Assembly (NCBI GenBank): GCA_947627575.1
Contig: CANQWN010000006.1
Coordinates: 1-64,000, forward strand
Direction: 5' to 3'
DNA length: 64,000 bases
From: an uncultured Clostridia bacterium
Lineage (GTDB): Bacteria; Bacillota; Clostridia; Christensenellales; Borkfalkiaceae
The notes under the pieces are model-generated. The model was not told where the DNA came from. It ran no database searches and was given only the letters and a program-made list of their open reading frames with translations. Positions 17,748 to 59,111 of the stretch are shown here, piece by piece (position 1 is the stretch's first letter; each line of letters opens with the position of its first letter). The translations under genes and the position numbers were made by a program.

Positions 17748-17785
17748 ATAAAACAAAAAAACTCCGCCGCGGCGCGGCGGAGTTT
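17748..17785 (-). terminator. Terminator of the TerY-P/helicase operon
   Basis: A 12-bp stem AAACTCCGCCGC/GCGGCGGAGTTT (17759-17770, 17774-17785) with a 3-nt loop is followed on the minus strand by a T-rich run. It lies immediately after the helicase stop codon. Confidence 0.85.
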
Positions 17786-17788
17786 GCG

Positions 17789-20700
17789 TTACGGGTTCAA
17801 AGCCCGCCGCGCCTCGTCCAAAAGTTTTGCCTTTTCATAGGAATAGTTTTTTATCCACGCTTCGGGGAAGACGCGGTAAATTTTCCAGAAATACTTATTT
17901 TCCAGCAGTTGTTCTGTAAGGCGGGTGTATTCCCGCACGCTGTCCAGATCGGGGCGGGAGGGGTTGTCTATTATTATCCCCAGCGCAAAATTTTCGGGGT
18001 TGTCTTTCGCGCATACGCCTATGTTTATTTTACATTCCGATCTGCCTATTTCCGTCCTGTAATCTATCCCCGCCTCGTCCAGCGCGGCGCATACCGAAGC
18101 CGCTACGGGCGTTGCGGGCGCGCGGGAACCGTATACGCCTACGCGCTTTATCGTTTCGGCATAATCCAAAAATTCGCACAGCGCAACCGCGCCTTCCTTG
18201 TTTTCCGCGGGCGCGCTACTAGCCTCTATCGCGGATTTCAGGGAATACACGTCAAGCGTGGAAATAACTATCATTCTGCGGCGGGCGCGCGTAACCGCAA
18301 CGTTAAGCCGCTTTTTGCCTGCGCGCAGGCGCAATCTGCCCAAATACGGCAGGGTGAATCTGCCGTTCGCGTCTTTGGAATAGCACACGCTTAAAAGCAT
18401 TGTGTCGCGTTCGTCGCCCTGCATTGTGTCAAGGTTGCAAAAAATCAGCGGCTCGTCCTTATGGCTGTTTTCCCACGCCTCAATCACAGGCTTACGCGCG
18501 GGATCTTCGCGGAATTTCAGCCAGCGGGACTCTATTTCCATCGCCTGCGCGTTTGAAAACGCCACCACGCCCAATGAATAGTTTTTCCTTTCCGCGTGGT
18601 TCATTTCCCGCCAAAGCAGGTTCACCGCGGCTTCCGCCTCGCCCGGGTTCGCGTGCGAACCCTTTGAACCGGAATCGTACGCCCTGTCGGGGCTGTACGG
18701 CACGCGGCGGTATTCTATGCCGTAATTTTCGTTTTTAAAGGCGGAGGGGAAGGTTATCAGGTTGTAATCGAAATGCTCGTTGGAAAAGGCTATAAGCGTC
18801 TCGTCACAGCTTCTGTAATGCCATTTCAGGGAAATGGAAACGTCCCCCAGCGCCGCGTTGGCGACGTTCAGTACCGAATATTCCGATTCGGACTCTTCGT
18901 CGAACAGCCTGTCGTCCCCGTCCACGGTTATGTCGTCTGCGCGGAAAAAGTCGCAGGGGGGAAGCTGGTTTCTGTCGCCCGCAATTATTATCTGTTTGCC
19001 ACGCACAATGCTTGCAAGGGCGTCCTCGATAAATATCTGCGAAGACTCGTCGAATATCACCATATCGAATTTAATAGACGGGTCTATATATTGGCTTACG
19101 TTCAGCGGCGACATCATAAAGCAGGGCTTTATCCTGCGTATATATTCCCAATTTTCAAGTATGGTTTCCTTTATGGAATGTTTGGCAAGGGAGCGCAGTT
19201 TGGGATATTCGCCCGTTGCTCCGCCCGCCCGCGCAAAAGCCGCGGCGCGCTTCAACTCGTCCAGCCGCAGATATAACTGCAAAGCCCCCGATTTCAGCGC
19301 GCGTTCGTCAAGGCGCGCATAGTTTTCCATAAGACGGCTGTGTTCGTCGCGTTCAAAGGACAGCACGCAATCCAAACTGTTTTTAAGCGCGTATTCGTGG
19401 GCGGCAAGTTTATAATATGTGCCGTAAATCATTCCCACCGCGGTTTCGTACTCGCTTACGCCGTTTTCAGTAAGCTCGTCCAAAATCCCCCGCGCGCCGC
19501 TTTCGTCCGCCCATTTCAGGTCCGCGCGGAAGTTGTACCAATCGGCAAGTCTGTCCTTTTCGGCGGCAACCGTTTCGGCTTCGCTTATGCAAAACCGCCC
19601 GTCGGACGCGCCGTCGAAAAATGCCGTTATCTCCCTGTTTAAAATCGCCTCGCCGTCCAGCGCTTCCGCAAGCGCTTCCGCCAATTTGCGCGCCGCGTTG
19701 CGCGTGGCGTCAGCCGCCTGCGGGGTGAATCTCAAAAGCGCGCCCCTATGCGTATCGAGGTCGTATCCCGCCGCGTCGTTGCGGAAGTAAAAGTTCTTTA
19801 TGCCGTCCGCAACGCGCAATATTTCGTCCCATTCTTCCGCGGTCTGCGGCGACGAGCCGAAGTTTTTGTAATCATCCTCGCTTTTGCCGTCGTATTCGGC
19901 TTTCATAAGGGTATATTCGCGGTATTTTATCAATTTATCCGCGTAAACCGCAAGTTCGGAATATTTTATTTTGCGCGGCTTGTCTTTAAAGCAACCGATA
20001 ACTTTCGCGGCGTAAATTTTGTATTTTTTGCCCAATCTCGAAAAAATCGGGCGGAATAAAGGCAATTGCGCCGCAAGCTCTTCCGCGTCAACGGCGGCAT
20101 AGGCGGCGGGGTCTATTTCGCGACGGTAGTTCCCGCCCGCGCAGGCGCACAATTTTTCCGCCTGCCCGCGCCGCAATGCGGCTTCAACCGTAAGCGCGTG
20201 CAAAACATCCCTGTCTTGTATTTGCGCCATCTGCACGGGCAGCGCGGGGGCTTCAGCCCAATCCTCCGCAAGCGTAAGCGCCCTTGTAAGGCTTTCCCTT
20301 TCAAACGCAAGTTCGCAGCCGAAAAATTTCTTCGCCGCTTCCGCACATTCCTTCAATTTTTTTATTGTGACGGAGTATCTTTCGCACAGCCTTTCAAGTT
20401 TGCCGCTGCCGTCGCCCTTGCAGTTTATAAGCGGGTCGTCGCGGTAGTTGAAGTATACCTTTCCCCTGCCGCAAAGCGAATAGAATCTTGAAATGCGCGC
20501 GATAAGTTCGTCTATGCCGCGGTTGTCGCAATCGTAGTCCGTAAAGCTGTTAAGTTTGCGGTATTTCGCGTAGGGCGCCGCCCTCTGCAATATCTTCTCG
20601 TATGATTCGCCGTCGGCGTCCACGGCGGAAATCTGGTTCATATATCTCTGTATTTTCCGCCTCCCTTCCGCCAATTCTTCGGGGGAGGGGGAATTGTATC

Positions 20701-22546
20701 TGTCGGCGGGTCTGCCGCAGGCAAGCGCCTTGTTTATTTCCGCTACAAAGGGGTCCCTGCAAACCGCGCCGCCGCGCTTGTTCAGGTGTTCGAAGTCGAG
20801 GACGAAATCGTTCAGCGAATGTGCGCCGTCCACTTCAAGCCTGCCGAGGTTATCCGTTATCACCGCGCGCGCAGTGGCTTTTTCCGTTACGAACAGCACG
20901 GATTTTCCGCTTCCCGCCGCCGTGGCTATCATATTAGTAATCGTTTGGCTTTTGCCCGAACCGGGCGGACCCTGTAATATGAAGGACTTGCCTTCCGCCG
21001 CCGCCCGTATAACATTTTCCTGGCTGGAATCGGCGTCAAGCACCATATATTTAGCGCCTTCTTTTGCGGGTTCCGCGTCGGGCAGGGGACATTCGTCGCC
21101 GCATATCCTGCGTATAACGGGATTTTCAAGGTACAGCGCGCGGTTGGTTTCAATGTCGTGTTCAAGTTGCAGTTTCTGATAGTGGAAAAGCCCCAGCCCC
21201 AAGCCTTCCGTCACCGTCCAATCTTTGGTAATCTGCGCCGCCGCGGAGGACGAATTTTTCCAGACGTTGGTCAGCATACGGAAGTATGTCTTTGCGCCGA
21301 AAGATTTGTCGTATTCGGGCATAGTAAGCGAACACATTGCGGAATATCCTTCCAGCATATGCGTAAGCGTACGGTTAAGCACAAATTCGGGCTTCGCTTC
21401 GGAAGCCTCGAAGTAACATTCCGCGCTTGTCCTGTCGTAGGTAAGCGTGATGGGAAGGAGAAGTATGGGCGAGCGGTAGGCAGTTCCCGACGAATCTTTC
21501 CAATTGAGGAAGCCGCAGGCGAGGTAAAGCACGTGCAAGCCGAAGTTCCGCTCCATATTTTTCGCCTTGCCCGTCATTCTTTTCACCGTTTCCTGCGCCT
21601 CGTCGTCGGGCAACGCGCAGAGTACGGCGGTTGACGGCAGAGAGGTAAGCAGGGAACGCTCTATCAGGGGATAGGAAGTAAGTTTTGCGGGCTTTCCGCA
21701 AACGGGGCAGGTTGCGTTTGCTTTGCGCACTTCGTCCAAAGCTATCTTTCCGCCGCACTCGCACGCGACGTAGCCGTCGTGCAGTACAAGGTCTTCCTTC
21801 AAAGTTACCATGCTTTTCCTGCCCGAAGTGTTGCCGCTGTCGCAGTCGGGGCAGGCTTCGGCGTATCTCGTCTTTTTATCGAAAGGGATAAAGGGGCGGA
21901 AGAGGTATTTGCCGCACAGTTTGCACTGCAAAACGGTTTGCGGTTTAAATAATTTCCATTCGGCAAATCTCACCCGCTTGCCGGAAATAAGCGCCTTCAT
22001 CGTCCCGTCTATGTTTCCGGAATGAAGCGTAAGCATACTTGTACGGCTGTTTTTAAAGTTCACCAAAGGGTTATTGCGGGAAACGTCAAGCAGCCTTATG
22101 CGGTAAAATTCCAGCTTCTTTTCTTGCGGCGTGGCTTGCTTTTCAATCGAAACGGAGGGGTCGAAGCTCAAAAGCTCGTTCTCGTCCAAATCGTCCGTCG
22201 CCACTTCGTTTTCGTCGGCAAGCCCCAAACACACGGCAAAAAGCCGCGTTACAAACACGTACGCCTGCACGCGGTAAATATCGGGGCGGCAGTCGCGCTT
22301 CATATTTCTCTGCGCGGCGAAAGCTATTTCAAGCGGATCGACTTCACGGTTGCCGCTTTCGGCTATTTCAAAAAGAATGGCGCACACGTAGTCCGCAAGG
22401 TCGTAAACGGCTTTCGCATATCCGTAGTTTACGTTTTCCCGCAGGTAGTCCGATATATAGAGCGAGGGCTTGTCTTTCCAAGCCGGTTCGCGTGCTGCCA
22501 TTTCCCTCATTCCCTCGCAGTAGCGGTGAAATCTCTCTTTAAGCAT
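17789..22546 (-). CDS. Large DUF4011-type SF1 helicase with zinc ribbons and a C-terminal endonuclease-like domain
   Basis: The 1585-residue protein is the last gene of the VWA-PP2C-kinase operon. Residues 1-140 are unassigned. A DUF4011-like segment near 150-180 carries RLLDVSRNNPLVNF, followed by two zinc ribbons (CKLC...CPDC and CECG...CPVC) at about 210-295. The SF1 helicase core has Walker A QGPPGSGKS near 524, motif II FDESSQ near 1160, and QGDERDTMLL near 1375 with motif VI NVAVTRARRR after it. A long charged helical insertion separates motifs I and II. The last 110 residues resemble the Vsr-like nuclease found in such helicases, but the usual RIDLAV and LGIExD motifs read KINIGV and LGIIID, so catalysis is doubtful. 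It probably unwinds nucleic acid under control of the kinase/phosphatase pair. GAGGA lies just before the ATG, 10 nt after the kinase stop. Confidence 0.8.
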   Translation of the reverse strand: MLKERFHRYCEGMREMAAREPAWKDKPSLYISDYLRENVNYGYAKAVYDLADYVCAILFEIAESGNREVDPLEIAFAAQRNMKRDCRPDIYRVQAYVFVTRLFAVCLGLADENEVATDDLDENELLSFDPSVSIEKQATPQEKKLEFYRIRLLDVSRNNPLVNFKNSRTSMLTLHSGNIDGTMKALISGKRVRFAEWKLFKPQTVLQCKLCGKYLFRPFIPFDKKTRYAEACPDCDSGNTSGRKSMVTLKEDLVLHDGYVACECGGKIALDEVRKANATCPVCGKPAKLTSYPLIERSLLTSLPSTAVLCALPDDEAQETVKRMTGKAKNMERNFGLHVLYLACGFLNWKDSSGTAYRSPILLLPITLTYDRTSAECYFEASEAKPEFVLNRTLTHMLEGYSAMCSLTMPEYDKSFGAKTYFRMLTNVWKNSSSAAAQITKDWTVTEGLGLGLFHYQKLQLEHDIETNRALYLENPVIRRICGDECPLPDAEPAKEGAKYMVLDADSSQENVIRAAAEGKSFILQGPPGSGKSQTITNMIATAAGSGKSVLFVTEKATARAVITDNLGRLEVDGAHSLNDFVLDFEHLNKRGGAVCRDPFVAEINKALACGRPADRYNSPSPEELAEGRRKIQRYMNQISAVDADGESYEKILQRAAPYAKYRKLNSFTDYDCDNRGIDELIARISRFYSLCGRGKVYFNYRDDPLINCKGDGSGKLERLCERYSVTIKKLKECAEAAKKFFGCELAFERESLTRALTLAEDWAEAPALPVQMAQIQDRDVLHALTVEAALRRGQAEKLCACAGGNYRREIDPAAYAAVDAEELAAQLPLFRPIFSRLGKKYKIYAAKVIGCFKDKPRKIKYSELAVYADKLIKYREYTLMKAEYDGKSEDDYKNFGSSPQTAEEWDEILRVADGIKNFYFRNDAAGYDLDTHRGALLRFTPQAADATRNAARKLAEALAEALDGEAILNREITAFFDGASDGRFCISEAETVAAEKDRLADWYNFRADLKWADESGARGILDELTENGVSEYETAVGMIYGTYYKLAAHEYALKNSLDCVLSFERDEHSRLMENYARLDERALKSGALQLYLRLDELKRAAAFARAGGATGEYPKLRSLAKHSIKETILENWEYIRRIKPCFMMSPLNVSQYIDPSIKFDMVIFDESSQIFIEDALASIVRGKQIIIAGDRNQLPPCDFFRADDITVDGDDRLFDEESESEYSVLNVANAALGDVSISLKWHYRSCDETLIAFSNEHFDYNLITFPSAFKNENYGIEYRRVPYSPDRAYDSGSKGSHANPGEAEAAVNLLWREMNHAERKNYSLGVVAFSNAQAMEIESRWLKFREDPARKPVIEAWENSHKDEPLIFCNLDTMQGDERDTMLLSVCYSKDANGRFTLPYLGRLRLRAGKKRLNVAVTRARRRMIVISTLDVYSLKSAIEASSAPAENKEGAVALCEFLDYAETIKRVGVYGSRAPATPVAASVCAALDEAGIDYRTEIGRSECKINIGVCAKDNPENFALGIIIDNPSRPDLDSVREYTRLTEQLLENKYFWKIYRVFPEAWIKNYSYEKAKLLDEARRALNP

Positions 22547-22556
22547 CGTATCCTCG

Positions 22557-24101
22557 TCAAACGTGTATTTTCAAAGTTTTCCCGTTTTTATAAACAATTT
22601 TATATCCGTCGCAAAGTTTTGCGCCGTCGCCGTCTTTAAGTTCGGCTATGCGACTGTCGTTGCGGTCGCGTATTTCCGCTTCGCCCGCGCAGGTAAAGTA
22701 AACCGCGCCGTTGTCGCATTCGAATTCTCCCGCTTCGGGCGCGTCAAGCGCCAACGTTGCGCCGCTTATTTTCTTTTTGCCGCCGTTCAGCTTGTAATAG
22801 CGTACGTTTCCCTCTGCGGAAAGGTATTCGATATAGGTTCCCGAAGGCACTCCGCCGTAAAAGCTGGCGTACTTCACCGCGTGGCTTTCGGGCGCGCGGA
22901 AGGCGTTGTAATTTTGTTTGCCGTCGGGCGCCCTGCCGCCGTAAAAAGAGGGGTAAGGTTGGTTTTCCGCAGGGGCGCGGGGCGCTTCGGCGGGTATCGC
23001 CGCGCTCATAATATATGACGGCGACGGCGCGTCGGGCTTTGCCCCGTGCTTTTTTGCGGCTTCCGCGCCGTCCGCGGGCTTTCCCGCAAGAATTTCGCCT
23101 ATAATTTTCGCCCAGCTGTGCGCGGTGGGGCGGGATTCGCGGTCGAAAGGTTTAACAAACGCCTTTTCAAAAAGTTGTTTCAGCCTCAAATCAAGCGAAT
23201 CCCATATCTTCAATTTTTCGTCCAGATTTTTTCTGAACGCGATGTTGGCGGGGTTTTTGCTGTTGCGCATAAGGTTGTCCACGCAATTGCATCTGTCTTT
23301 GGGGTCGAAGATGTAGGTGAGGCACCTTATGTCCAGATCGCCGTCGTCCACGGCTTCCTTAACGCCTTCCATATCCAGACAGGCGGGCAAAACGGAATAC
23401 ATTATCTCGCCGTGATAAGCCGATTGCAGGCAGTTATCCAACAGCATGCGGAAGATGAATGTGGCAAGCGCATATCTGTCGCTGTATATCGAAACTTTTT
23501 CCTTTCCGAACGCCACTTCGGGCGCAAGGAAAAATCCCGTGCCCTTCAAAAAGTTCAATTTCCCGCTTTCTATATCGGCGGAGTTTGCGGCGTTTTCGCA
23601 GTCGATAACGTATATAAAACCGCTGTCCGCATTGTACATAAAGTTGCCCCAATTTATGTCCGTATAGCAGTGCCCCACGTTGTGCAAAAGCGTCAAAGCC
23701 GTGGCTATTTTCTTTATGATGCGCAGTTTTTGGGTTACGCTCATCTTCTGTATTTCGCCGTCGATAAGCATATCGTTAAGCGTTTTGCCGGGCACGCAGT
23801 CCATAAGATAGGCAACTTCGCCGTTCGCTTCGCACATGCTTTTGGGGAAAACAAAGTCAACCTGTTCCCTTGCGGCTATTTCGTCTATGCGCTTTTCTAT
23901 CCCGGAATTTATAAGTTGTCGCACGTTTTCTATCTTATTGCAACGCTTCTGATAATCCTGTTCGTTTAGTATCTTAACGCAAAAAAACTTGCCCTGCCTG
24001 TCCTTTACGCGCCATATCGAGCCTTGTCCGCCCTGCCCCAATTTGCGGTCCACGGTATAGGGTTCGCCCTTGAAAGCTACGATATCTCCCGTATTAATCA
24101 T
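22557..24101 (-). CDS. Ser/Thr protein kinase of a TerY-P-like triad
   Basis: This 514-residue soluble kinase has a glycine loop GQGGQGS at 23-29 and the VAIK-type lysine at 43 (CVKIL). The catalytic loop is YTDINWGN (D148, N153) where HRDxKxxN is usual. Its magnesium motif is DCE at 167-169 instead of DFG, and the APE motif is at 194-196. Active-site Lys, Asp and Asn are kept, so activity is likely. Residues 345-420 form a Pro/Ala-rich linker with two SFYGG elements. The last 100 residues look like a small beta domain, possibly a ligand or phosphopeptide module. It overlaps the phosphatase gene by 8 nt, with GAGGTG before the start, so coupled translation is expected. Confidence 0.85.
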   Translation of the reverse strand: MINTGDIVAFKGEPYTVDRKLGQGGQGSIWRVKDRQGKFFCVKILNEQDYQKRCNKIENVRQLINSGIEKRIDEIAAREQVDFVFPKSMCEANGEVAYLMDCVPGKTLNDMLIDGEIQKMSVTQKLRIIKKIATALTLLHNVGHCYTDINWGNFMYNADSGFIYVIDCENAANSADIESGKLNFLKGTGFFLAPEVAFGKEKVSIYSDRYALATFIFRMLLDNCLQSAYHGEIMYSVLPACLDMEGVKEAVDDGDLDIRCLTYIFDPKDRCNCVDNLMRNSKNPANIAFRKNLDEKLKIWDSLDLRLKQLFEKAFVKPFDRESRPTAHSWAKIIGEILAGKPADGAEAAKKHGAKPDAPSPSYIMSAAIPAEAPRAPAENQPYPSFYGGRAPDGKQNYNAFRAPESHAVKYASFYGGVPSGTYIEYLSAEGNVRYYKLNGGKKKISGATLALDAPEAGEFECDNGAVYFTCAGEAEIRDRNDSRIAELKDGDGAKLCDGYKIVYKNGKTLKIHV

Positions 24102-25686
24102 CTTTCACCTCGTCAGTATTCTCTCTTTCGCCGTGCGTCATAAGCGCGAACACGATAGAGCAGTCGTCGCCCTTTCCGCACTGCGTCTCGTTGTAATCCG
24201 CGCAGCGCATCGCGGCGGCGTCCGCCTTGTCCGCCCTTTCGGAGGGGTCCGCCGTTTCGTACAGCTCGTAGCAGAAATCCAGCTTGTTTTTCATATTTCC
24301 GAACAGGGAATCCGCCCCGTCGGAAGCTATAAGTATGCAGTCCACTTCGTCCGCGTCGAAAAATCTCATTTGCAACGCGTGCGGATTTGTTTTAAGGTGC
24401 GCCAGCGTAAGAACTTCGGTCTGCGTTACGCCGGAAACGCCGTCGTTCACGTCAAATCCGCCCACCGCGATTCTGTCTGTTATCCGTTCGGATTTTTTCA
24501 CGAAGAATACGCCGTCGCCCACCGCGCCGCACAGCACGTAATCGGGGCAACCGAACGCAAACTGCATTGTGGTGGCGAAAGCCTCCGTTCCCGCGCCGCC
24601 GTAATTTGCGTATTCACCGGAAGCGCGGATAAGTTTTTCCCATTCGGCGTACAGATCCCCGGCAAGCGAATTGCGCATATATATCGCAAATTCCACCCAA
24701 TTTATCGCGGGCGTTTGGCTTTTGTACCGCCTGCGGAAGCGTTTGCTTTTTCTTGCGGCTTCGGTCAGTTGCTCTATTTTCGCGGAAATGACGTTTTTAA
24801 GCGCCTCCGCGGCTTTTTGCGAGCCGAGCGCGGAATCGATACAGCTTCCCACGCCGTCGTTGCAAACGGCAAGCCACGCGCCGTCCCGCCCGTCGAATGT
24901 GCAGCAAGAGGAGTAGTCCTCGCAGGATATATGCCCGGGTTTTTGCAGCATACCCTCGTGCGAGACGGAGTAAATTTCCACGCCGTCGCCCGCGGCGCTT
25001 GTCTTTACGCGCGCCCTGTGGCTTTTGCCGAGGTATTCTTCAAGGCAGGATATCCATATTTTGGGTCGGTAGTTGGGGTATTTGAACGCCAGCGCGTCCC
25101 AAAGCATCTCGTAAATTTTAACTTCGCCCGCATTTTCTCCGCCGCCGGCAAGTTTTTCCACGTCTCGTTTTTTAAGCGAAAATTTTATTTCCTCGCCCAT
25201 ACGTCTTATGTTTTCGGCGGCGGGGCGGGGCAGATCCCCGTCGGACTGCAAGGCGTTCAGCGCGGCGTTCATACGCGCATATGCGCCGTCCGCGCGCGGC
25301 TTTGCCGCGTCCGTCCACACTTCGTCGGGATATTTCCCGCCCGTCATTATAAAAAATATCGCGCCTGCAAGGCAGATGTTTGCGCGCCCTTTAGCAGGAA
25401 GCTCCTTTTCGCAGTCGCAGGGCAAAAGCAGGCGTTTATTGTCCAATTTAGTTTGTAAAGCGTCCGCGGCGGCGCACAAAGTTTCTTCCGCGCCGTCGTT
25501 TTCGTTTGCGGCAAAAATTTCGGCAACCTTTATGCACAGCCGCAGTTTTCCGCCGTAATCCGCGGGCGGGAAAATGGCGCTTTGCGCGCCGCCGTCCGTT
25601 TCAGCCGCGGCGGAAGCGTGCGTCGGCAGACGTTTTGTGCCGTCCGTGCCGAAAAATTCGTATAAAAAATTATTTTCGTCGGGCAT
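24094..25686 (-). CDS. PP2C-family protein phosphatase of a TerY-P-like triad
   Basis: The 530-residue protein has a C-terminal PP2C domain (about 235-515) with the metal-binding motifs NDGVGS near 278, GAVGDG, SDGADS near 453 and GDDCS near 508, so it should be an active Mn/Mg-dependent phosphatase. The N-terminal 230 residues are not PP2C. A stretch ending LAGAIFFIMTGGKYPDEVW resembles the helix-F region of a protein-kinase C-lobe with no catalytic loop before it, hinting at a degenerate kinase lobe (inference). GGAGGG precedes the ATG. A hairpin with T residues separates it from the VWA gene. It probably reverses phosphorylation by the neighbouring kinase. Confidence 0.85.
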   Translation of the reverse strand: MPDENNFLYEFFGTDGTKRLPTHASAAAETDGGAQSAIFPPADYGGKLRLCIKVAEIFAANENDGAEETLCAAADALQTKLDNKRLLLPCDCEKELPAKGRANICLAGAIFFIMTGGKYPDEVWTDAAKPRADGAYARMNAALNALQSDGDLPRPAAENIRRMGEEIKFSLKKRDVEKLAGGGENAGEVKIYEMLWDALAFKYPNYRPKIWISCLEEYLGKSHRARVKTSAAGDGVEIYSVSHEGMLQKPGHISCEDYSSCCTFDGRDGAWLAVCNDGVGSCIDSALGSQKAAEALKNVISAKIEQLTEAARKSKRFRRRYKSQTPAINWVEFAIYMRNSLAGDLYAEWEKLIRASGEYANYGGAGTEAFATTMQFAFGCPDYVLCGAVGDGVFFVKKSERITDRIAVGGFDVNDGVSGVTQTEVLTLAHLKTNPHALQMRFFDADEVDCILIASDGADSLFGNMKNKLDFCYELYETADPSERADKADAAAMRCADYNETQCGKGDDCSIVFALMTHGERENTDEVKDD

Positions 25687-25702
25687 TTCGTTCCCTCCAT
25701 TT

Positions 25703-25735
25703 TAAAAGGGGGGAGAGGTGTTTCACTCTCCCCGC
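25703..25735 (-). terminator. Intra-operon hairpin between the VWA and PP2C genes
   Basis: On the minus strand GGGGAGAG/CTCTCCCC (25726-25733, 25710-25717) forms an 8-bp stem with an 8-nt loop, followed by CCTTTTAA. It resembles a weak terminator that would make the VWA protein more abundant than the downstream enzymes. It ends before the PP2C ribosome site. Confidence 0.55.
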
Positions 25736-25741
25736 GGTCTT

Positions 25742-26392
25742 TTAAACTGCTATCGAGGCGTTTAACGTCACCGATTCCAGAATTTCCACAAGGTTGTCGG
25801 TGTATTCTTCGGAACAGTCGTAGTAGGGCTTTATGCCCGCCTTTTCCATTTTGTCGCTTACCTTCGCAAAGCGTTTAAGACTGTCCTTGCCCTGTTCGTT
25901 TACGTTAATGCCTATCGCCACGCGCAGGGACTTTCTGAACTGCCTTATGTGGTTGGGGCTGTTCTTGTCCGCGTATTCCAGCACCTCGTCGTAGGAAGGG
26001 GTGCTGTCGGTCGGCTCGCCGTCGGAAATAAGCACTATCGCGGGCGCAACGGCGTTTTTGTCCTCTTCGCCGTAATTGCCGCCCTGCAAGTCCTTGATAA
26101 CCTCGTAGATAGCCGCGCCCGTGGGCGTGCCGCCGTAGAAGGTTTCCTGTTTGATGGGGTCCCAATGATCGAAGTCGTCAAGCGTCCTTTCGGCTATAAG
26201 CACAACGTTGTTGGTGAAATTGCTTGAAAAGCCCAGCACCTTGAAGTTGATATTCAAATCGGGCGTTTTAAGGCGTTTTATTTCGGGTATTGCGTCCGCC
26301 ACAACGTTTTCCATCGCCGTGTTAACGGCGTCTGCGCGCTGTCCGTGCATCGAGCCGGAGCAGTCGATCAAAAAGTAAACTGTTTTGTTCAT
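25742..26392 (-). CDS. VWA-domain protein, TerY-like
   Basis: The 216-residue soluble protein is a single von Willebrand A domain with a complete MIDAS: DCSGS at 10-14, the Thr of GGTPTG near 89-91, and SDGEPTD near 123-129. It resembles TerY-type proteins, which by published comparative genomics (Anantharaman, Iyer and Aravind, on Ter-dependent stress systems) recur with a PP2C phosphatase and a kinase as the TerY-P triad. It is first in the operon, with GGAGG before the ATG and its own consensus-like promoter. Its likely role is a metal-dependent scaffold for the complex. Confidence 0.88.
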   Translation of the reverse strand: MNKTVYFLIDCSGSMHGQRADAVNTAMENVVADAIPEIKRLKTPDLNINFKVLGFSSNFTNNVVLIAERTLDDFDHWDPIKQETFYGGTPTGAAIYEVIKDLQGGNYGEEDKNAVAPAIVLISDGEPTDSTPSYDEVLEYADKNSPNHIRQFRKSLRVAIGINVNEQGKDSLKRFAKVSDKMEKAGIKPYYDCSEEYTDNLVEILESVTLNASIAV

Positions 26393-26425
26393 TTTATTCC
26401 TCCGTAAAGTTTATTTACAATAGTG

Positions 26426-26454
26426 ATTATAGCATGTCACCTTTTAAAAATCAA
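26426..26454 (-). promoter_or_regulatory. Promoter of the VWA-PP2C-kinase-helicase operon
   Basis: On the minus strand TTGATT (26449-26454), a 17-bp spacer and TATAAT (26426-26431) are present. The start site would be near 26419, about 27 nt before the VWA ATG. It is the only clear promoter upstream of the four genes. Confidence 0.7.
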
Positions 26455-46845: not shown

Positions 46846-48936
46846 ATGGATGCACATAAATTATGGCTGTTGAGGGATTTTATCGGAGCAAATAAGGTAT
46901 TGTTCAGGATACCCGTTTATCAGCGCAATTATGATTGGTCCGAATCCAACTGCAACAGGCTTTTGGACGATGTTCATAACATAATCAAAACATCCGAAAA
47001 GCATTTTTTGGGTACTATAGTGTTTATGGCTGCCGGAAGCGGCGGCTTCGCCCTGCAGGAATATATAATAATAGACGGGCAGCAGCGGCTTACAACCCTC
47101 ATGATAATGCTTAAAGCGTTGGCGGAGCTTGCAAAGCAAGAGGGCGACAATTGCTATGAAGAAATAAACGATACATATTTGCATAACAAGTTTTGCGCCG
47201 AGGAATTTAAAGTTAAATTAAAGCCCATAAAAAGCGATAACGAGCAATTTTTGCTTCTTTTAAACGGAAGAATCAAGGAGATGGACGAGGATAGTCATAT
47301 CTTCGTAAATTACGATATTTGCAAGCGGAGATTTGAAAAATGGATTGATAGCGGCGTAACGCCCTCCGGCATTTTAGAGGCGCTTACGAAGTTGGAGTTG
47401 GTTGAAATAGTACTTACCAAAGGCGAGGACGATCCGCAAATAATCTTTGAAAGCATAAATTCCACAGGGCTGGAACTTTCAAATTCCGATCTTATAAGAA
47501 ACTTTCTTTTGATGAACGCCGACAATCAGGAAAAGCTGTACGAAGATTATTGGCTTAAAATAGAAAATGCTTTAAAGAAAAAGTCCGATTATACATTTTT
47601 GGATATGTTTTTCACGCAATATATCCTGTATAAAACAAGTAAGCCCGTAAATAATAAAAGACTTTACGAACTGTTCGTAAAGTTGTTCAGAGATGGCGGA
47701 TATTCACAGGAAGGTATATTGCAGGAGCTTTTATATTACGCGGAAATTTTCAAGGCCTTCGCATTCGGAAGCGGAGATTATTCGGACGAAATCAACCGTA
47801 CTCTTAAAAAGATAAGGGTGCTGAATCAGTCAACATGCTATCCGTTCCTTTTCCATGTGTTTGACGATTTCCACAAACACGTAATATCGGAATCGCAACT
47901 TAAACAAGTTGTAGATTTAATTTTATCCTACCTTTTAAGACGTCTTGTCTGCGGCGTGCCGTCAAACTCGTTGCGCGGGTTGTTTATTTATTTGTATAAC
48001 CGTGTGTTCAAAGTGGAAAGCAACAAACAAAAATATTATGAAGCTATAAATAAATTTCTGTTCACGGTTACATCAAAAGACGTTGTGCCTTCCGCCGCGG
48101 AATTTAACCGCTGTCTTACTACGGCAAATATCTACGGAAACCCCGCACTTTGTAAATTTTTGCTGTCTGATATTGAGAACGGGGATAGCAAAGAGACATT
48201 GCATACTGAAAATCTTACGATAGAGCATATTATGCCGCAGACATTAAGCGCCGATTGGAACTATATATCGGAAGGCGAACACGAACAATATCTTCACACT
48301 TTGGGCAACTTGTCCGTTACCGGATACAATTCCGAGCTATCCAATAAAAGTTTTGCGGATAAAAAAGCAATAATCAAGGAACATTCCAAAGCCGTGGTAC
48401 TGAATTCTGACGTCATTGATAAGGAAGTGTGGGATATTGCTTGTATAACAGCCCGCGCCCAAAGACTTGCCAAAATTGTTGTCGATAGATACCGGATCAA
48501 TATGGTAGTCGACGATACGATAGAATTTGAATATATTCAGACGGTTACTCTCTCAAATTACGGCGATATAACCGGCAAAAGGCTTGTAACGTTTAAATTT
48601 TTCAATAATGTCTATCGCCAGAATTATTACGCATTGATGCTTTTGGATATCATAAAATTGCTTGATAAATCCAAACCGGGTAAACTTGAAGAATTGGCGA
48701 AAAGCGGTTTCTCGTTTTCCGCTTATAGAAGACATATTCATATAAACACCGACGGATCGAATATGCGTTTGCCGCAAAAAGTTAAGGATGACGTGTTTGT
48801 CGAAATTAATTTATCGGCGGTTTCCTGCGTAAAATTTATCGAATACCTGTTAAAGGAATTCGATATACCTTCAACCGAATTTTCCTTTAACATAGTAGCC
48901 GAAGAATCGGAAGAATACGATGACGAAAACAACTGA
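46846..48936 (+). CDS. GmrSD-like type IV restriction protein (DUF262 + DUF1524)
   Basis: The 696-residue protein has an N-terminal DUF262 domain with IPVYQRNYDWSE near 23-34 and the nucleotide-handling DGQQRLTT near 76-83. A helical middle follows, then a DUF1524 HNH-type nuclease with EHIMPQTL near 459 and LGNLSVTGYNSELSN about 25 residues later. The last 150 residues or so form a further domain I cannot name. Related proteins cut modified phage DNA (GmrSD, BrxU). The S and D parts are fused in one chain. GGGTAGGGAG precedes the ATG. It is a stand-alone gene with its own promoter at the edge of the defence island. Confidence 0.87.
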   Translation: MDAHKLWLLRDFIGANKVLFRIPVYQRNYDWSESNCNRLLDDVHNIIKTSEKHFLGTIVFMAAGSGGFALQEYIIIDGQQRLTTLMIMLKALAELAKQEGDNCYEEINDTYLHNKFCAEEFKVKLKPIKSDNEQFLLLLNGRIKEMDEDSHIFVNYDICKRRFEKWIDSGVTPSGILEALTKLELVEIVLTKGEDDPQIIFESINSTGLELSNSDLIRNFLLMNADNQEKLYEDYWLKIENALKKKSDYTFLDMFFTQYILYKTSKPVNNKRLYELFVKLFRDGGYSQEGILQELLYYAEIFKAFAFGSGDYSDEINRTLKKIRVLNQSTCYPFLFHVFDDFHKHVISESQLKQVVDLILSYLLRRLVCGVPSNSLRGLFIYLYNRVFKVESNKQKYYEAINKFLFTVTSKDVVPSAAEFNRCLTTANIYGNPALCKFLLSDIENGDSKETLHTENLTIEHIMPQTLSADWNYISEGEHEQYLHTLGNLSVTGYNSELSNKSFADKKAIIKEHSKAVVLNSDVIDKEVWDIACITARAQRLAKIVVDRYRINMVVDDTIEFEYIQTVTLSNYGDITGKRLVTFKFFNNVYRQNYYALMLLDIIKLLDKSKPGKLEELAKSGFSFSAYRRHIHINTDGSNMRLPQKVKDDVFVEINLSAVSCVKFIEYLLKEFDIPSTEFSFNIVAEESEEYDDENN

Positions 48937-53347: not shown

Positions 53348-56300
53348 ATGTCGTTTAACGTTATAGAGGCTTCAAAACATATTATTGAAAAATATCAACG
53401 CTATTTAAGGACGGTTTTTGATATTAAGGACCCGGATTATAGAACTTTGTTCTTGGAGCAATTAAAAGATAGCGATCCGTTTTCAAAAGGTCCGTATCTC
53501 GATGTGGTTGATTCATTTCAAAAGGGACATTCTGTTCCGCAGCTAATTGAAGACGGCTTGCTTCATCGTGATTTTGTCAAAATACAAGATATATATAATA
53601 AGACGCTTTACGTTCATCAGGAAGAGGCTGTCCGCAAAGCTGCTGCCGGAAACAATTTGGTTATTTCAACGGGTACCGGCTCGGGTAAGACAGAAGGTTT
53701 TTTACTGCCTATACTTAATGCCTTAATGAAGGAGAAGGAAGAAAACGGGGGCATATTGTCTCCGGGGGTAAGGGCGTTGATAATTTATCCTATGAATGCC
53801 CTTGCAAACGATCAGGTGGACAGGCTTAGAAGGACGCTTGCCGATTATCCCGATATTACATTCGGCTGTTACACGGGTCAAACAGAACATAACTATTCTA
53901 AGGCACTGTTAACTTACCAAAAACTTAACAAGAACGGAGTAACGGGGGAAGAAAAACAACCACTTAAAAACGAGCTTATTTCGCGTGAGCAAATGAAAAG
54001 AACACCTCCGCACATTTTGATTACAAACTATGCAATGTTAGAATATCTAATGTTACGCCCCGAAGACAACGTATTTTTTAACGGAGAATTTGCAACTCAC
54101 TGGAAGTTTATTGTTCTTGATGAAGCCCATACATATACGGGATCTACCGGTATAGAAGTTTCCTTGTTATTAAGAAGAGTAGTGGCACAACTCAATAATC
54201 CTCAATTACAATATATCCTTACAAGTGCAACTCTGGGAGATGAGAATTCTAATGAAATGGTGGTGTCATTTGCCGAAAACTTATGTAATGCTCCATTTGA
54301 TACTTATAATATTATAAGGGCTACGCGAATAAGTTTGCAAGAAGTTGAAAAAAGCGAACAGATTGATTTAGATATTGGTTTCTATACATATATAGCTAAA
54401 TTACTGGATGCAGGCTATGATGATAAAATAATACTTTCAAAAATTCAAGAAGATTTCGGTTTAACAAGTTTAACTCAATCTTTAAGTGAATTTTTGTTTG
54501 ACATTTTAATAAAAGACAAAACATATTGGCGGGTAAAAAATCATCTTAGTTCGCCTAAAAGTGTTGCCGATGTTTGCGAATATATGGGGTGGTCTTCCGA
54601 GGAACTGTCCGACTTTGTTTCGGTTGCATCATGTGCAAATAAAGATAGGACTAAACTTTTCGATTCTCGCTATCATTTATTTATAAAAGCAACGGAAGGC
54701 GTGTATATAACATTAACTCCTCATAAAAACTTATTTTTGAACAGAAAGAATATTGACTATTATGAAGGGAAAGAGTATAAGGTTTTTGAAGTGGTTTCAT
54801 GCGTTCAATGCCACGCTCTTTATATTCTCGGTAATATTGAAGGAGGCAAACTTGTTCAAAAATCAAGCTCCGGCGATCAAGTAATAAAGGAGGCTTTTTT
54901 AATCGGTGATACTGTTCATAATGAAGATGAGGATAATTCGTTAGAAATTGAACATTTGACGACGGAGCAATATGAACTTTGTCCGTATTGTGGGTTTATC
55001 CGCAATAAAAACGCAGTTCATAAGGGTAGATGTGAACATAGCGAAGCTGAATATATCCAGTTAACAAAAGTAAAAACAAGTGAAATTACGGGTAGGGTTA
55101 CAAAATGCCTTTGTTGCGAGGGGGTAAACAGCTTGGGTATTTTGCGCGCATTTTTTACCGGGCAAGAAGCATCGACAAGCGTTATAGGCACTGCATTATT
55201 CGAAGAATTACCGGCTTATGAAAAAAATATAGTTTTGCACGAAGATGATTCCGGCTTTGAAGGATTTGAAATAGGTGAAGACGTAGTGGAGACGCCCAGG
55301 GCAAAGCAATTTATAGCTTTTTCGGATAGCAGACAGGCTGCGGCTTATTTTTCAACTTATTTTTCCGAAACCTACGATGGAATTTTATACGGCAGACTGA
55401 TTCGTGAAACGGCTTTAAAAAATGGTGGTGAGGCAAAGGTTATTCCGCAATTTGTGAAAGAACTTTCAGGAATATTCAAGAGAAATAATATTGTGCCTTT
55501 CGGTGAAGAAAACCCCGATTACGAACTTGAAGCATGGAAAGCCGTATTAAAGGAGTTGGTTGATAACCGTTCAAGAAATTCATTGATTGGATTGGGGCTT
55601 TTGAAAGTTGACATAGACGATAATATAAAATTCGGACAAAATATAAAATATAATTTATCGACAGAAGAAGTAAAAAATCTTTGTCTTGCGTTTATTATGG
55701 GCATGTTGTCAGATGTAGCTGTTTACTATGAAAAGGATATGTCGGAAGCGGATAGAGAATTTTTTACTCATAACGGCGTGGAAACTACCTATCTATCTAA
55801 TGGTGCAAATTCAAAATATATTAAATCGTTTGTGCCTAAAAATGATAACAGAACAAATAAGAGGTTAGATTATCTTTCAAGGATTTTAAAAAAGAAAGGA
55901 ATTGTTGCCCGCCGTGAGGAAATGATTAAATTATTGGAATCCTTATGGCAAATTTTCTTTGTAAGATCTGAGCTTGTAAAAAATGTTACAACAAAATCAG
56001 AAGGAGAGGGTTATCAGGTAAATACAAATAAATTAACGTTGTCCGCTTCAAATAAATGGTATATTTGCAATCATTGTAAAAAATTGACTACAATAAATAT
56101 CGATAATGTTTGCCCTAATTATCTTTGTGACGGTGCTCTTGAAAATATAGACGTAGATAAAGCCCTTCAAGACAATCATTATTATCGTATGTATAATGAT
56201 TTACTTGTTCAGCCATTGCGCGTAGTGGAACATACGGCACAACTTGATAGAGAGGAAGCTTATAAATATCAGAATATGTTTAAATCAAAAAAGATAGATG

Positions 56301-58081
56301 TTTTAAGTTGTTCCACTACGTTTGAAATGGGTGTGGATGTAGGCGAACTGGAAACGGTATTTATGAGGAATATGCCGCCGACACCGGCAAATTATACGCA
56401 AAGAGCGGGGCGCGCCGGCAGAAGTACAAATTCTGCGGCGTTTGCACTTACATTCTGCACAAAATCAAACCATGATTTTAATTTTTTCAAAAATCCCATA
56501 TCAATGATAAAAGGAATAATTACGCCGCCGGCATTTAAGGTTGACAATGAAAAAATAAGCATACGGCACGTATATTCTTCGGCTCTTGCATTCTTCTGGC
56601 GCAAATATCCTATGTATTATGGGAGCGTAGAAGATATGTTGGAACCCAAAAAAGAAGGCGATAAGTGTGGCTATGATATGTTTAAAACGTATTTAAAAAG
56701 CAAGCCTCAGGATTTGAAAGAGTATCTTTTTAAATGTTTACCGAAAAGATTAATGCAGCAATTTGAAATTAATTCTTTCGGTTGGGTGGATTGGCTTTTT
56801 GATAAACCTAAAGACGAATATCCTAATTTTAAAAGGGTCTTTGAATTATATGTGAGAGAAATTAAGGCGCTTGTAGAAGATAAAAACAGAGCGTTTGTAA
56901 GCGGGGAAAAAGTAGATTACATTGTTTGGCGGTTGAAAAATTACAGAAGCGAACGTATTATAACGTTTTTATCTAAAAATAGTATTTTACCCAAATACGG
57001 TTTCCCCGTTGATACGGTAAGTTTAGCAATACAAACCCAAGGTCCTTCAAGTACTCTTGATTTATCCAGGGATTTATCTATGGCTATTTCAGAGTATGCC
57101 CCCGGTTGTCAGATTGTAGCAGACGGTAAACTTATTACTAGCCGCTATATTAAAAAAATGCCTAATGAGCATTGGAAAATGTATGATTATGTAAAATGTC
57201 CTAATTGCCAAACTTTAAATTTAGAGATAAATACGGGTTGTAGCAGGGAAAAGTTAAAGCAGTGTAGGCAGTGCCATGCTGTATTAAGAGATAGCGAAAT
57301 TAAAACATTTTTAATCCCGGATTTTGGTTTTGTTGCGGACAGAAGAATTGAAAAGCCAACTCTTATTAAACCGGAAAGGACATTCAGATCGGAAGCTTCG
57401 TTTGTAAGCTATAATAATGAAATACCGGAAATCGAGTATAAAATAGGGAATACAAAGATTAATGTAGCTTCAATAGATAACGGCAGAATGGCAATGCTTG
57501 CGACAGATGATTTTTTTGTGTGCCAGGAATGTGGTTATGCAATGGATGGACCTGAAACGGGTAATCCTTTTGTTCGTCATCACACCAAAGAACATTATAC
57601 TTCATATGGCGCAAAATGTAAGTGCAAAAACTTAGATAGATTTTCGCTTGGGTATACATTTGAAACTGATGTGATAAGATTGCGCATTGATAAGCCTATT
57701 ACGCGAGTTGAAGAGGCATATTCGGTATTACAAGCGTTTATATTATCGGCTTGCTCAAATCTTAATATAGACAATAATGAGATTTCCGGCTGTTTACAAT
57801 ACTATAAAGACGGTTGCTATAGTTATATTTTGTATGATTCGACGCCTGGTGGTGCAGGACATGTCAGAAGGTTAAACAATGAAACGGCTTTACGCGAAAT
57901 GTTGAACTCGGCATATTTCAGAGTTGATACTTGTACATGCGGGGATGACAAAGGCGATACATCTTGCTATGGGTGTTTACGCACTTATCAAAACCAAAGG
58001 CACCACGATATTATTAAGCGTAGGTACGTAATTGACTATTTAAAGGATATAATTACCGAGAATATAAATGTAAATAGTTAA
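53348..58081 (+). CDS. DEAD/DEAH-box SF2 helicase with C-terminal DUF1998 (DruE/DrmA-like)
   Basis: The 1577-residue ATPase has a Walker A motif TGTGSGKTEG near 106-116, VLDEAHTYTG near 255, motif III LTSATLG near 290, and motif V-VI FEMGVDV followed by QRAGRAGRS near 1018. Several zinc-binding pairs lie between and after these: CVQC about 483, CPYC about 544, CLCC about 587, CNHC about 907, CPNC/CRQC about 1285-1310, CQEC about 1392. The C-terminal DUF1998 contains DSTPGGAGHV and CTCG...CYGCLRTYQNQ near 1530-1553. Helicases with this layout belong to DISARM, Druantia and related defence systems, or to MrfA-like repair enzymes. AAAGGAG precedes the ATG. The relic of hsdR begins within 35 nt of its stop. 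Confidence 0.88.
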   Translation: MSFNVIEASKHIIEKYQRYLRTVFDIKDPDYRTLFLEQLKDSDPFSKGPYLDVVDSFQKGHSVPQLIEDGLLHRDFVKIQDIYNKTLYVHQEEAVRKAAAGNNLVISTGTGSGKTEGFLLPILNALMKEKEENGGILSPGVRALIIYPMNALANDQVDRLRRTLADYPDITFGCYTGQTEHNYSKALLTYQKLNKNGVTGEEKQPLKNELISREQMKRTPPHILITNYAMLEYLMLRPEDNVFFNGEFATHWKFIVLDEAHTYTGSTGIEVSLLLRRVVAQLNNPQLQYILTSATLGDENSNEMVVSFAENLCNAPFDTYNIIRATRISLQEVEKSEQIDLDIGFYTYIAKLLDAGYDDKIILSKIQEDFGLTSLTQSLSEFLFDILIKDKTYWRVKNHLSSPKSVADVCEYMGWSSEELSDFVSVASCANKDRTKLFDSRYHLFIKATEGVYITLTPHKNLFLNRKNIDYYEGKEYKVFEVVSCVQCHALYILGNIEGGKLVQKSSSGDQVIKEAFLIGDTVHNEDEDNSLEIEHLTTEQYELCPYCGFIRNKNAVHKGRCEHSEAEYIQLTKVKTSEITGRVTKCLCCEGVNSLGILRAFFTGQEASTSVIGTALFEELPAYEKNIVLHEDDSGFEGFEIGEDVVETPRAKQFIAFSDSRQAAAYFSTYFSETYDGILYGRLIRETALKNGGEAKVIPQFVKELSGIFKRNNIVPFGEENPDYELEAWKAVLKELVDNRSRNSLIGLGLLKVDIDDNIKFGQNIKYNLSTEEVKNLCLAFIMGMLSDVAVYYEKDMSEADREFFTHNGVETTYLSNGANSKYIKSFVPKNDNRTNKRLDYLSRILKKKGIVARREEMIKLLESLWQIFFVRSELVKNVTTKSEGEGYQVNTNKLTLSASNKWYICNHCKKLTTINIDNVCPNYLCDGALENIDVDKALQDNHYYRMYNDLLVQPLRVVEHTAQLDREEAYKYQNMFKSKKIDVLSCSTTFEMGVDVGELETVFMRNMPPTPANYTQRAGRAGRSTNSAAFALTFCTKSNHDFNFFKNPISMIKGIITPPAFKVDNEKISIRHVYSSALAFFWRKYPMYYGSVEDMLEPKKEGDKCGYDMFKTYLKSKPQDLKEYLFKCLPKRLMQQFEINSFGWVDWLFDKPKDEYPNFKRVFELYVREIKALVEDKNRAFVSGEKVDYIVWRLKNYRSERIITFLSKNSILPKYGFPVDTVSLAIQTQGPSSTLDLSRDLSMAISEYAPGCQIVADGKLITSRYIKKMPNEHWKMYDYVKCPNCQTLNLEINTGCSREKLKQCRQCHAVLRDSEIKTFLIPDFGFVADRRIEKPTLIKPERTFRSEASFVSYNNEIPEIEYKIGNTKINVASIDNGRMAMLATDDFFVCQECGYAMDGPETGNPFVRHHTKEHYTSYGAKCKCKNLDRFSLGYTFETDVIRLRIDKPITRVEEAYSVLQAFILSACSNLNIDNNEISGCLQYYKDGCYSYILYDSTPGGAGHVRRLNNETALREMLNSAYFRVDTCTCGDDKGDTSCYGCLRTYQNQRHHDIIKRRYVIDYLKDIITENINVNS

Positions 58082-58112: not shown

Positions 58113-59111
58113 GCGTTTGACGCTACTACTTTAAATACTCTTTGGGTCGATAAAAACTTGAAAATGCACGGCTTAATTCAAGCATATTCCCGTACAAATC
58201 GCATATTGAATACGATTAAAACCTATGGCAATATCGTTTGTTTCCGTAACTTGCAAAAGCGTACAGACGATGCGGTTTCGGTATTCGGAGACAGGGAAGC
58301 GGGCGGTATCGTAGTGATGCGCGGATATAAGGACTATTATTATGGTTATACGGATGACAAAGGTAAATATAATAAAGGATATGTTGATTTAATAAATGAA
58401 CTTACCGAAAATTTTTCGCTTGCCGAAGAGCGTATTATCGGGGAGAAAAATCAGAAAAACTTTATTGTCTTGTTTGGTGCTATTCTCCGTATGCGTAATT
58501 TGTTGACATCATTTGATGATTTTGCAGACAATGAAATTCTTTCGGAGCGTGATTTGCAGGATTATCTCGGAAGATATCAGGATTTGCGCGACGAATGGAA
58601 GGCGCGTCGTGAAGATGGAGAGAAGGAAGACATAACCGACGATATTGTTTTTGAAATAGAGCTTATCAAACAGATAGAGATAAATATTGATTACATTTTG
58701 TTGCTCGTACAAAAATATCATGATACGCATTGTTGCGACAAAGAAGTTTTAATTACAATACAAAAAGCCGTTGATGCAAGTCCGCAGCTTCGTAGTAAAA
58801 AATTATTGATTGAGAATTTCATTGCGGGAGTAAACGACATTTCCGATGTGATGATTGAATGGCGTGAATATGTAGCGGCGCAAAAGGAGAAACAACTTGA
58901 CGACATTATAAAAGAGGAAAATCTAAAACCTGACGAAACGAGGAAGTTTATAGATAATTCTTTCCGTGATGGACAATTAAAGACGAACGGAACGGATATA
59001 GATAAAATAATGCCTCCGATTTCAAGATTTGGCGGCGGCAGAGCAGAAAAGAAAGCGCAGGTTATAGAAAAACTTTTGATATTCTTTGAAAGTTTTTATG
59101 GGATAGGATAA
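58113..59111 (+). pseudogene. hsdR: 5'-truncated hsdR (type I restriction endonuclease C-terminal part)
   Basis: The frame reads AFDATTLNTLWVDKN upstream of the first ATG at 58158, then HGLIQAYSRTNRILNTIKT and GGIVVMRGYKDYYYGYTD, and later ERDLQDYLGRYQDLRDEW. This is the last third of an EcoR124-type HsdR, including the end of the second helicase domain and the C-terminal helical domain. The nuclease and both Walker motifs, some 650-700 residues, are missing. Similarity begins right after the DUF1998 helicase gene ends and a stop codon (58104-58106) closes the frame. The remaining 317-codon frame is intact but should not restrict DNA. Confidence 0.85.

Follow-up and report, generated by a model that had tools for sequence, protein, structure and literature searches.

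A conserved four-gene cassette in Clostridia joins a TerY-P-like VWA, phosphatase and kinase triad to a DUF4011 helicase with a degenerate nuclease domain

The TerY-P triad was described as an anti-phage system by Gao et al. 2020, as told in passages of PMC7699616 and PMC11090510. The first of these passages reports defence against T7-like phages; the second reports a tie to tellurite resistance and kinases carrying a zinc ribbon or an OB-fold. According to the sections of PMC11090510 on CoCoNuT systems, types II and III-A encode TerY-P with UPF1-like helicases; types III-B and III-C are said to lack TerY-P completely, their helicase being fused to different nucleases or to other effectors. 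NCBIfam uses the names Hhe and ProA for anti-phage proteins of the DUF4011 type, met as a name in a list in PMC11291487, and in an excerpt of PMC10250203 a DUF4011 gene flanks a defence hotspot of P. aeruginosa. Here we analysed a stretch of 64,000 nucleotides from an uncultured Clostridia bacterium (hereafter the window), in which a minus-strand operon at positions 17,748-26,454 encodes a VWA protein, a PP2C phosphatase, a Ser/Thr kinase and a DUF4011 helicase of superfamily 1 (SF1). These four genes almost certainly form a real conserved unit. No published description of exactly this set came up in the literature searches, though something close may be mentioned in Anantharaman 2012 or Gao 2020. 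The features of the operon are as follows:

26426..26454, minus strand: promoter-like site TTGATT-17-TATAAT with TG before the -10 box (10/12), the -10 box lying 33 nt from the VWA start codon
25742..26392, minus strand: gene 1, VWA protein, 216 aa (open reading frame (ORF) and Pfam)
25710..25733, minus strand: hairpin of 8 pairs in the VWA/PP2C gap (folding, z -2.5)
24094..25686, minus strand: gene 2, PP2C phosphatase, 530 aa (ORF and Pfam)
22557..24101, minus strand: gene 3, Ser/Thr kinase, 514 aa (ORF and Pfam)
17789..22546, minus strand: gene 4, DUF4011 SF1 helicase, 1585 aa (ORF and Pfam; PADLOC model PDC-S37, 652.9 bits)
17759..17785, minus strand: intrinsic-terminator-like hairpin of 12 pairs, 8 of them G-C, with a T-run beyond (position and quality)

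The junctions are tight: 55 nt separate VWA and PP2C, PP2C and kinase overlap by 8 nt, and 10 nt lie between kinase and helicase. An earlier note on this DNA had described a four-gene operon with a promoter, a terminator and tight or overlapping junctions; all four ORFs are indeed found at the places it gave, and Pfam agrees. Across the region, promoter-like sites (14, against a shuffle mean of 9.1, sd 2.8) and terminator-like hairpins (30, against 24.3, sd 4.4) barely exceed shuffled sequence, so that the two calls made for the operon rest on where the sites lie and how good they are, and not on frequency. That the four genes are a unit is best supported by their conservation in other genomes.

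This conservation was followed with a profile built from three VWA orthologs (alignment A1) and run on several overlapping genome samples. The scores were clearly bimodal: over all samples orthologs reached 349-441 bits and the best of the remainder 47.8, and among 297 genomes of the order the type scored 349-432 bits with the next best at 36.5. Orthologs were present in 5 of these 297 genomes and in 3 of 326 genomes of the family, the same three as in a 101-genome family search; the class sample (1/391) and the phylum sample (1/398) each returned the window's own genome. Altogether six genomes carry the cassette (G000, which is the window's, G082, G032, G240, G330 and G320), belonging to three families of one order. 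Gene order and strand are identical in all five assessable ortholog loci. Such neighbourhood of the four families is one of the points on which the earlier note had made its reading depend, and on this point the reading holds. In G320 one contig carries VWA, PP2C and kinase in this order and breaks off within the kinase gene; the helicase gene sits terminally on a different contig.

A helicase profile run on the same 297 genomes gave 1870-2996 bits in exactly the five genomes with the VWA type and at most 511 bits elsewhere; if the two types were independent, full agreement of five and five would have a chance of about 5e-11, a figure that relatedness makes too small. This perfect matching argues against the view that a TerY-P triad and an Hhe-like helicase are defence systems independent of each other and share only a promoter. 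Such an arrangement is conceivable in that each part is named as a stand-alone defence, TerY-P in a passage of PMC7699616 and Hhe by its NCBIfam name, and in that other DUF4011 helicases do stand without the triad: by tblastn, the VWA, PP2C and kinase of the cassettes had no match at any of 22 such loci (14 from named genomes, 8 from the family, five of them shorter than 10 kb). However, the first acid of the nuclease domain described below is lost in the cassette helicase clade alone, bar one Thr in G015, and we regard two unconnected systems as very improbable.

Eight other VWA-kinase clusters were noticed in related genomes (L065, L066, L067, L068, L097, L098, L099 and L100); a PP2C gene beside them is shown for L065 and L066, and none of the eight has a strong match to the cassette helicase. 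In a set of 5.8 billion proteins, whose matches come without genomic context, the VWA protein had 65 matches including itself (identity of 55-66% for 46 of the remaining 64), and the kinase had 39, of which 28 exceed 250 bits (a near-copy of itself included). The PP2C search returned three proteins, again including a near-copy, too few for a profile. A PDB sequence search gave generic helicase, integrin-VWA and kinase matches and none for PP2C.

The three proteins of the triad appear intact. The VWA domain (Pfam, 45.6 bits) has D10, S12, S14, T89 and D124, which we take to be the MIDAS residues, in all six orthologs; its match to the PADLOC TerY model is weak (16.2 bits, E 0.0014, over 49 residues). 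In the phosphatase, PP2C_2 (58.2 bits) covers residues 253-483 behind about 250 N-terminal residues, the metal-binding Asp is kept in 6/6, and no PADLOC or NCBIfam model matched at E 0.01. The kinase (Pkinase, 64.0 bits; mean pLDDT of the AF2 model 83.9) has DCE in place of DFG and keeps its catalytic residues in 6/6. The earlier note had matched this triad to the published TerY-P. Composition, adjacency and active sites agree with that assignment; the TerY match is weak, the phosphatase has no model match, and the tail of the kinase differs. The zinc ribbon or OB-fold given for TerY-P kinases in PMC11090510 was not found in the window kinase, where an FHA fold is predicted instead:

22851..22955, minus strand: stretch of the disordered linker of the kinase, containing three loose Y..F repeats (YPSFYGG, YNAFRAP, YASFYGG) (sequence and AF2)
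22560..22841, minus strand: kinase C-terminal domain, residues 421-514, predicted FHA fold (AF2 and Foldseek)

Foldseek on the predicted tail gave nine matches at E 0.001 or better, all of them FHA domains. The canonical phosphothreonine-binding residues of FHA domains are the Arg after IG, a Ser and a His. In an alignment of this domain the Gly is kept in 16 of 17 sequences, only 4 of the 17 have an Arg directly after it, and no His is conserved. The linker carries its own signature: a strict Y..F.P motif occurs 24 times in 17 of 28 kinase tails, against 0.24 expected from shuffles, the copies in the window kinase being looser. Both the FHA fold and this motif, together with the nuclease-like domain at the C-terminus of the helicase, had gone unmentioned in the earlier note.

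For the helicase, Pfam recognized DUF4011 (PF13195, 86.1 bits against a cut-off of 22.2), AAA_11, AAA_12 and MTES_1575, distributed with the motor motifs as follows:

21353..22096, minus strand: DUF4011 domain, residues 151-398 (Pfam)
21698..21925, minus strand: zinc-ribbon pair inside DUF4011, C208, C211, C232, C235, C262, C264, C280 and C283 (alignment)
20948..20971, minus strand: Walker A GPPGSGKS, residues 526-533 (alignment)
19037..19054, minus strand: motif II FDESSQ, residues 1165-1170 (alignment)
18275..18295, minus strand: motif VI VTRARRR, residues 1418-1424 (alignment)
17816..18097, minus strand: degenerate MTES_1575/Vsr-type nuclease domain, residues 1484-1577 (Pfam PF18741, 40.0 bits, cut-off 38.2)

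Q509, the residues of Walker A, motif II and motif VI, and the eight Cys are kept in 5/5 cassette helicases, so the zinc-ribbon helicase of the earlier note is borne out, the Cys looking like two ribbons. These Cys are common to a sister helicase in G012 and absent in 15 other helicases of the same alignment. The sister is 41% identical over residues 1000-1582 and tblastn detected no triad on its 9-kb contig; there it comes after two transglutaminase-like genes (L057, G012:C58). The cassette helicases group as a single clade in the helicase tree, with support 100/100; the "2 changes" that the tree gives for this group are an artefact, the rows L129 and TRIAD_G320 being the same G320 gene. The window's genome has a second DUF4011 helicase of about 1890 aa (L064, G000:C4:96176-100057), with the first nuclease acid kept and the E replaced; this type of helicase, unlike that of the cassette, is widespread in the family.

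In the nuclease domain, the canonical K-I-D-l-A-V...G-I-E-C-D-G...R-D-R-D-R-L-R reads K-I-N-I-G-V...G-I-I-I-D-N...D-S-V-R-E-Y in the window, with K-I-N for K-I-D at 1508 and GIIID for GIECD at 1523-1527. The residues concerned are, judging also from the family pattern, catalytic acids of a PD-(D/E)xK-like site, and in none of the six cassette helicases are these acids kept: among 59 distinct sequences compared, all six cassette members have N or S in place of the first acid and I in place of the E. The first acid is D in 51 of the 53 other DUF4011 helicases, E in one (G012) and T in one (G015); 24 of the 53 keep both D and E, and 27, mostly long paralogues, keep D without E. Since loss of the E is common across the family, it is the loss of the D that marks the cassette. 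The domain is not decaying, because its mean pairwise identity among five cassette helicases (62%) is about that of the motor (66-70%), elsewhere being 27-49%. From these substitutions the nuclease domain is very probably disarmed, and it may have been retained for binding. As side observations, the active site of G012 reads E/D/D, a possible intermediate, and the G330 helicase (L095, G330:C62) has one in-frame TAG inside the degenerate domain in that assembly.

The same conservation can be turned to another account. The nuclease could still be active with altered metal ligands, the cassette then being a restriction-like helicase-nuclease with phosphorylation as the gate on its cutting, which makes explicit the picture of the earlier note. 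Beside the 62% identity, D1527 and R1538 are kept in 6/6, and the 27 relatives without E, yet with the first D, point the same way. The replacement of both acids in every cassette helicase and of the DRDRLR stretch speaks against it, and we consider an active nuclease unlikely.

The hairpin between VWA and PP2C is present in five of six loci, G240 being the exception, and is followed by UUUU in G330 and G320; in G330, folding of the entire stretch gave no greater stability than that of shuffled sequence (z -1.1). It is a possible attenuator or processing site, and may set the VWA protein in excess over the other cassette proteins.

The surroundings of the cassette vary: MatE and ThiF genes in the window, a weak beta-helix match in G082, pectate lyase and P-type ATPase in G032. 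When the flanks of five cassettes were compared, no more than two pairs of proteins matched at E 1e-20, both between G032 and G240 and at least 10 kb from the cassette. The rarity within the family and the different flanks indicate an accessory, moving module. The helicase tree points in the same direction: the window and G082, of one genus, are not sisters, with support 91/87 for a group with G082 and without the window. Same-genus genomes that lack the cassette have the nadC-3H-MatE block (G1142) or the ThiF-CysMet pair (G1135); no clean empty site was found, block and pair never being adjacent in the ten stretches compared. No phage-borne VWA copy was seen in viral contigs, where one weak partial profile match appeared (L110, 46% over 54 residues).

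This distribution bears on a role in the host itself. An FHA-kinase, a phosphatase and a helicase sensing damage could constitute a stress or genome-maintenance checkpoint loosely like Rad53/Chk2, whose architecture of FHA plus kinase is reproduced here and both of which are among the structural matches. The immediate neighbours of the operon in the window are, by Pfam, metabolic or transport genes, and the link of TerY-P with tellurite resistance in the cited passage of PMC11090510 fits as well. A checkpoint present in 3 of 326 family genomes, in differing surroundings and with a gene tree that (with moderate support) does not follow the genus would nevertheless be unusual, and this explanation seems to us improbable.

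Anti-phage defence is the most likely function, and the wider surroundings were examined for it. The window contains the following region:

35030-63660: defence island with an Eco57I-like methylase, GmrSD (46846-48936), a DruE-like helicase (53348-58081), PDC-S01 AAA/DUF4143 and a type I methylase

Within this region GC drops to 33-38% between 46 and 60 kb. The DruE-like helicase gene stands behind a 1316-aa ORF without Pfam or PADLOC match, and of a type I restriction subunit R, directly behind the helicase gene at 58158-59111, no more than the C-terminal portion (EcoR124_C) is left, which looks like a remnant. Around four other cassettes, PADLOC was run on 85 flank proteins of at least 150 aa, 18 of which were scanned one by one. 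At 1e-20, 51 families were matched, nearly all by a single member (25 families among the matches listed). They include Hachiman HamB, encoded upstream of the cassette in G082 at a distance of about 13.5 kb, a mad3-like match situated 3.7 kb past the G330 cassette, and a type II methylase-like member that was not located within the 18. The enrichment in defence islands that the earlier note had proposed to look for is at most suggested by these surroundings, and the material is too little for a claim of enrichment. Surroundings of this kind are no more than compatible with a defence role.

With about even confidence we read the cassette as a TerY-P-like phospho-switch wired to a helicase of the Hhe/ProA kind, in which the helicase would sense, phosphorylation would deliver the output, PP2C would act as reset and the VWA protein as scaffold. 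The DUF4011 helicase would be sensor and motor on nucleic acid: it has a pair of zinc ribbons and two RecA-like motor halves, and its nuclease-fold tail, the catalytic acid being lost, would now serve for binding and no longer cut. Contact with foreign or damaged nucleic acid would change its state; the FHA-tailed kinase, docked by the linker motif and held by the VWA protein, would then phosphorylate the helicase or other targets, with arrest or a block of phage replication as the output. PP2C would reset the switch and keep the kinase silent in uninfected cells. Sensing, complex formation, signalling direction, output and defence are all what we infer.

Several observations weigh against this switch. 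The usual phosphothreonine-binding residues of FHA domains are not conserved in the kinase C-terminal domain over the 17 sequences, and the G240 kinase is without an FHA domain altogether. The co-occurrence test covered the VWA and helicase types alone. The operon lies outside the defence island, which starts about 9 kb away, and around other cassettes defence-like genes are only scattered. As for the nuclease, the six cassette helicases belong to one clade, which implies a single loss of the first acid, kept since; the six cases are one event. Moreover many relatives without the triad may, judging from the missing E in 27 of 53, be weak or inactive nucleases themselves.

Another use of the same enzymes would be a kinase toxin that kills or arrests the cell, with PP2C as its antidote and the helicase merely triggering release. 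Kinase and phosphatase residues are both kept and the two genes are those that overlap, and KKP, a kinase-kinase-phosphatase module, has defence activity according to the excerpted text of PMC11341870. That text describes KKP with neither a VWA protein nor a helicase, and a toxin-antidote pair is rather unlikely, the phospho-switch wired to the helicase being the reading that we retain. A unit that travels as a block with a constant helicase partner would in any case offer a compact system for asking what TerY-P acts on, and whether it is effector or regulator.

Compared with known systems, the cassette resembles TerY-P in having adjacent VWA, PP2C and Ser/Thr kinase genes with active-site residues kept, and differs from it by kinase tails with a predicted FHA fold or nothing instead of a zinc ribbon or OB-fold, and by its link to a helicase in every assessable locus. 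The helicase shares with Hhe, ProA and PDC-S37 (NF042953, NF058533 and PDLC05009) the succession of DUF4011, SF1 motor and MTES_1575-type C-terminal domain. The PDC-S37 match covers residues 142-1582 and profile positions 7-1341 of 1550, with no cut-off shown for that model; membership of Hhe or ProA is not indicated, the scores of 407.7 and 643.4 bits lying below cut-offs of 2000 and 1500. Unlike these three, it has the zinc-ribbon pair, has lost the first nuclease acid and is encoded with the triad. KKP, in the part of PMC11341870 concerned, likewise places a kinase and phosphatase pair in phage defence, but with no VWA or helicase described. Hachiman HamAB, in the portion of its description at hand, is close to the proposed scheme, a helicase acting as genome-integrity sensor that controls a separate effector; that effector is a nuclease, whereas here it would be the kinase. 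CoCoNuT types II and III-A are alike in encoding a UPF1-like SF1 helicase with a TerY-P triad. The cassette differs from them by DUF4011 and the degenerate Vsr-type domain and by an operon without McrBC-like CnuB/CnuC or HEPN CnuE; by Pfam, no McrB/McrC-like or CnuE gene was found in the four-gene operon or among its direct neighbours in the window. By analogy, a nuclease that is fused but disarmed where the triad is present fits the inverse relation of CoCoNuT in a different helicase family. Tentatively, and with less confidence than for the switch itself, phosphorylation may here have replaced DNA cleavage as the defence effector of a DUF4011 helicase, the nuclease tail being kept as a binding platform, in an independent echo of the CoCoNuT pattern. 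If true, this would make the system a bacterial counterpart of a checkpoint kinase, directed at phages. For genome mining there is a concrete prediction, namely that fused nuclease and TerY-P are inversely related in two helicase lineages. The cassette is a new variant that joins two known kinds of defence parts.

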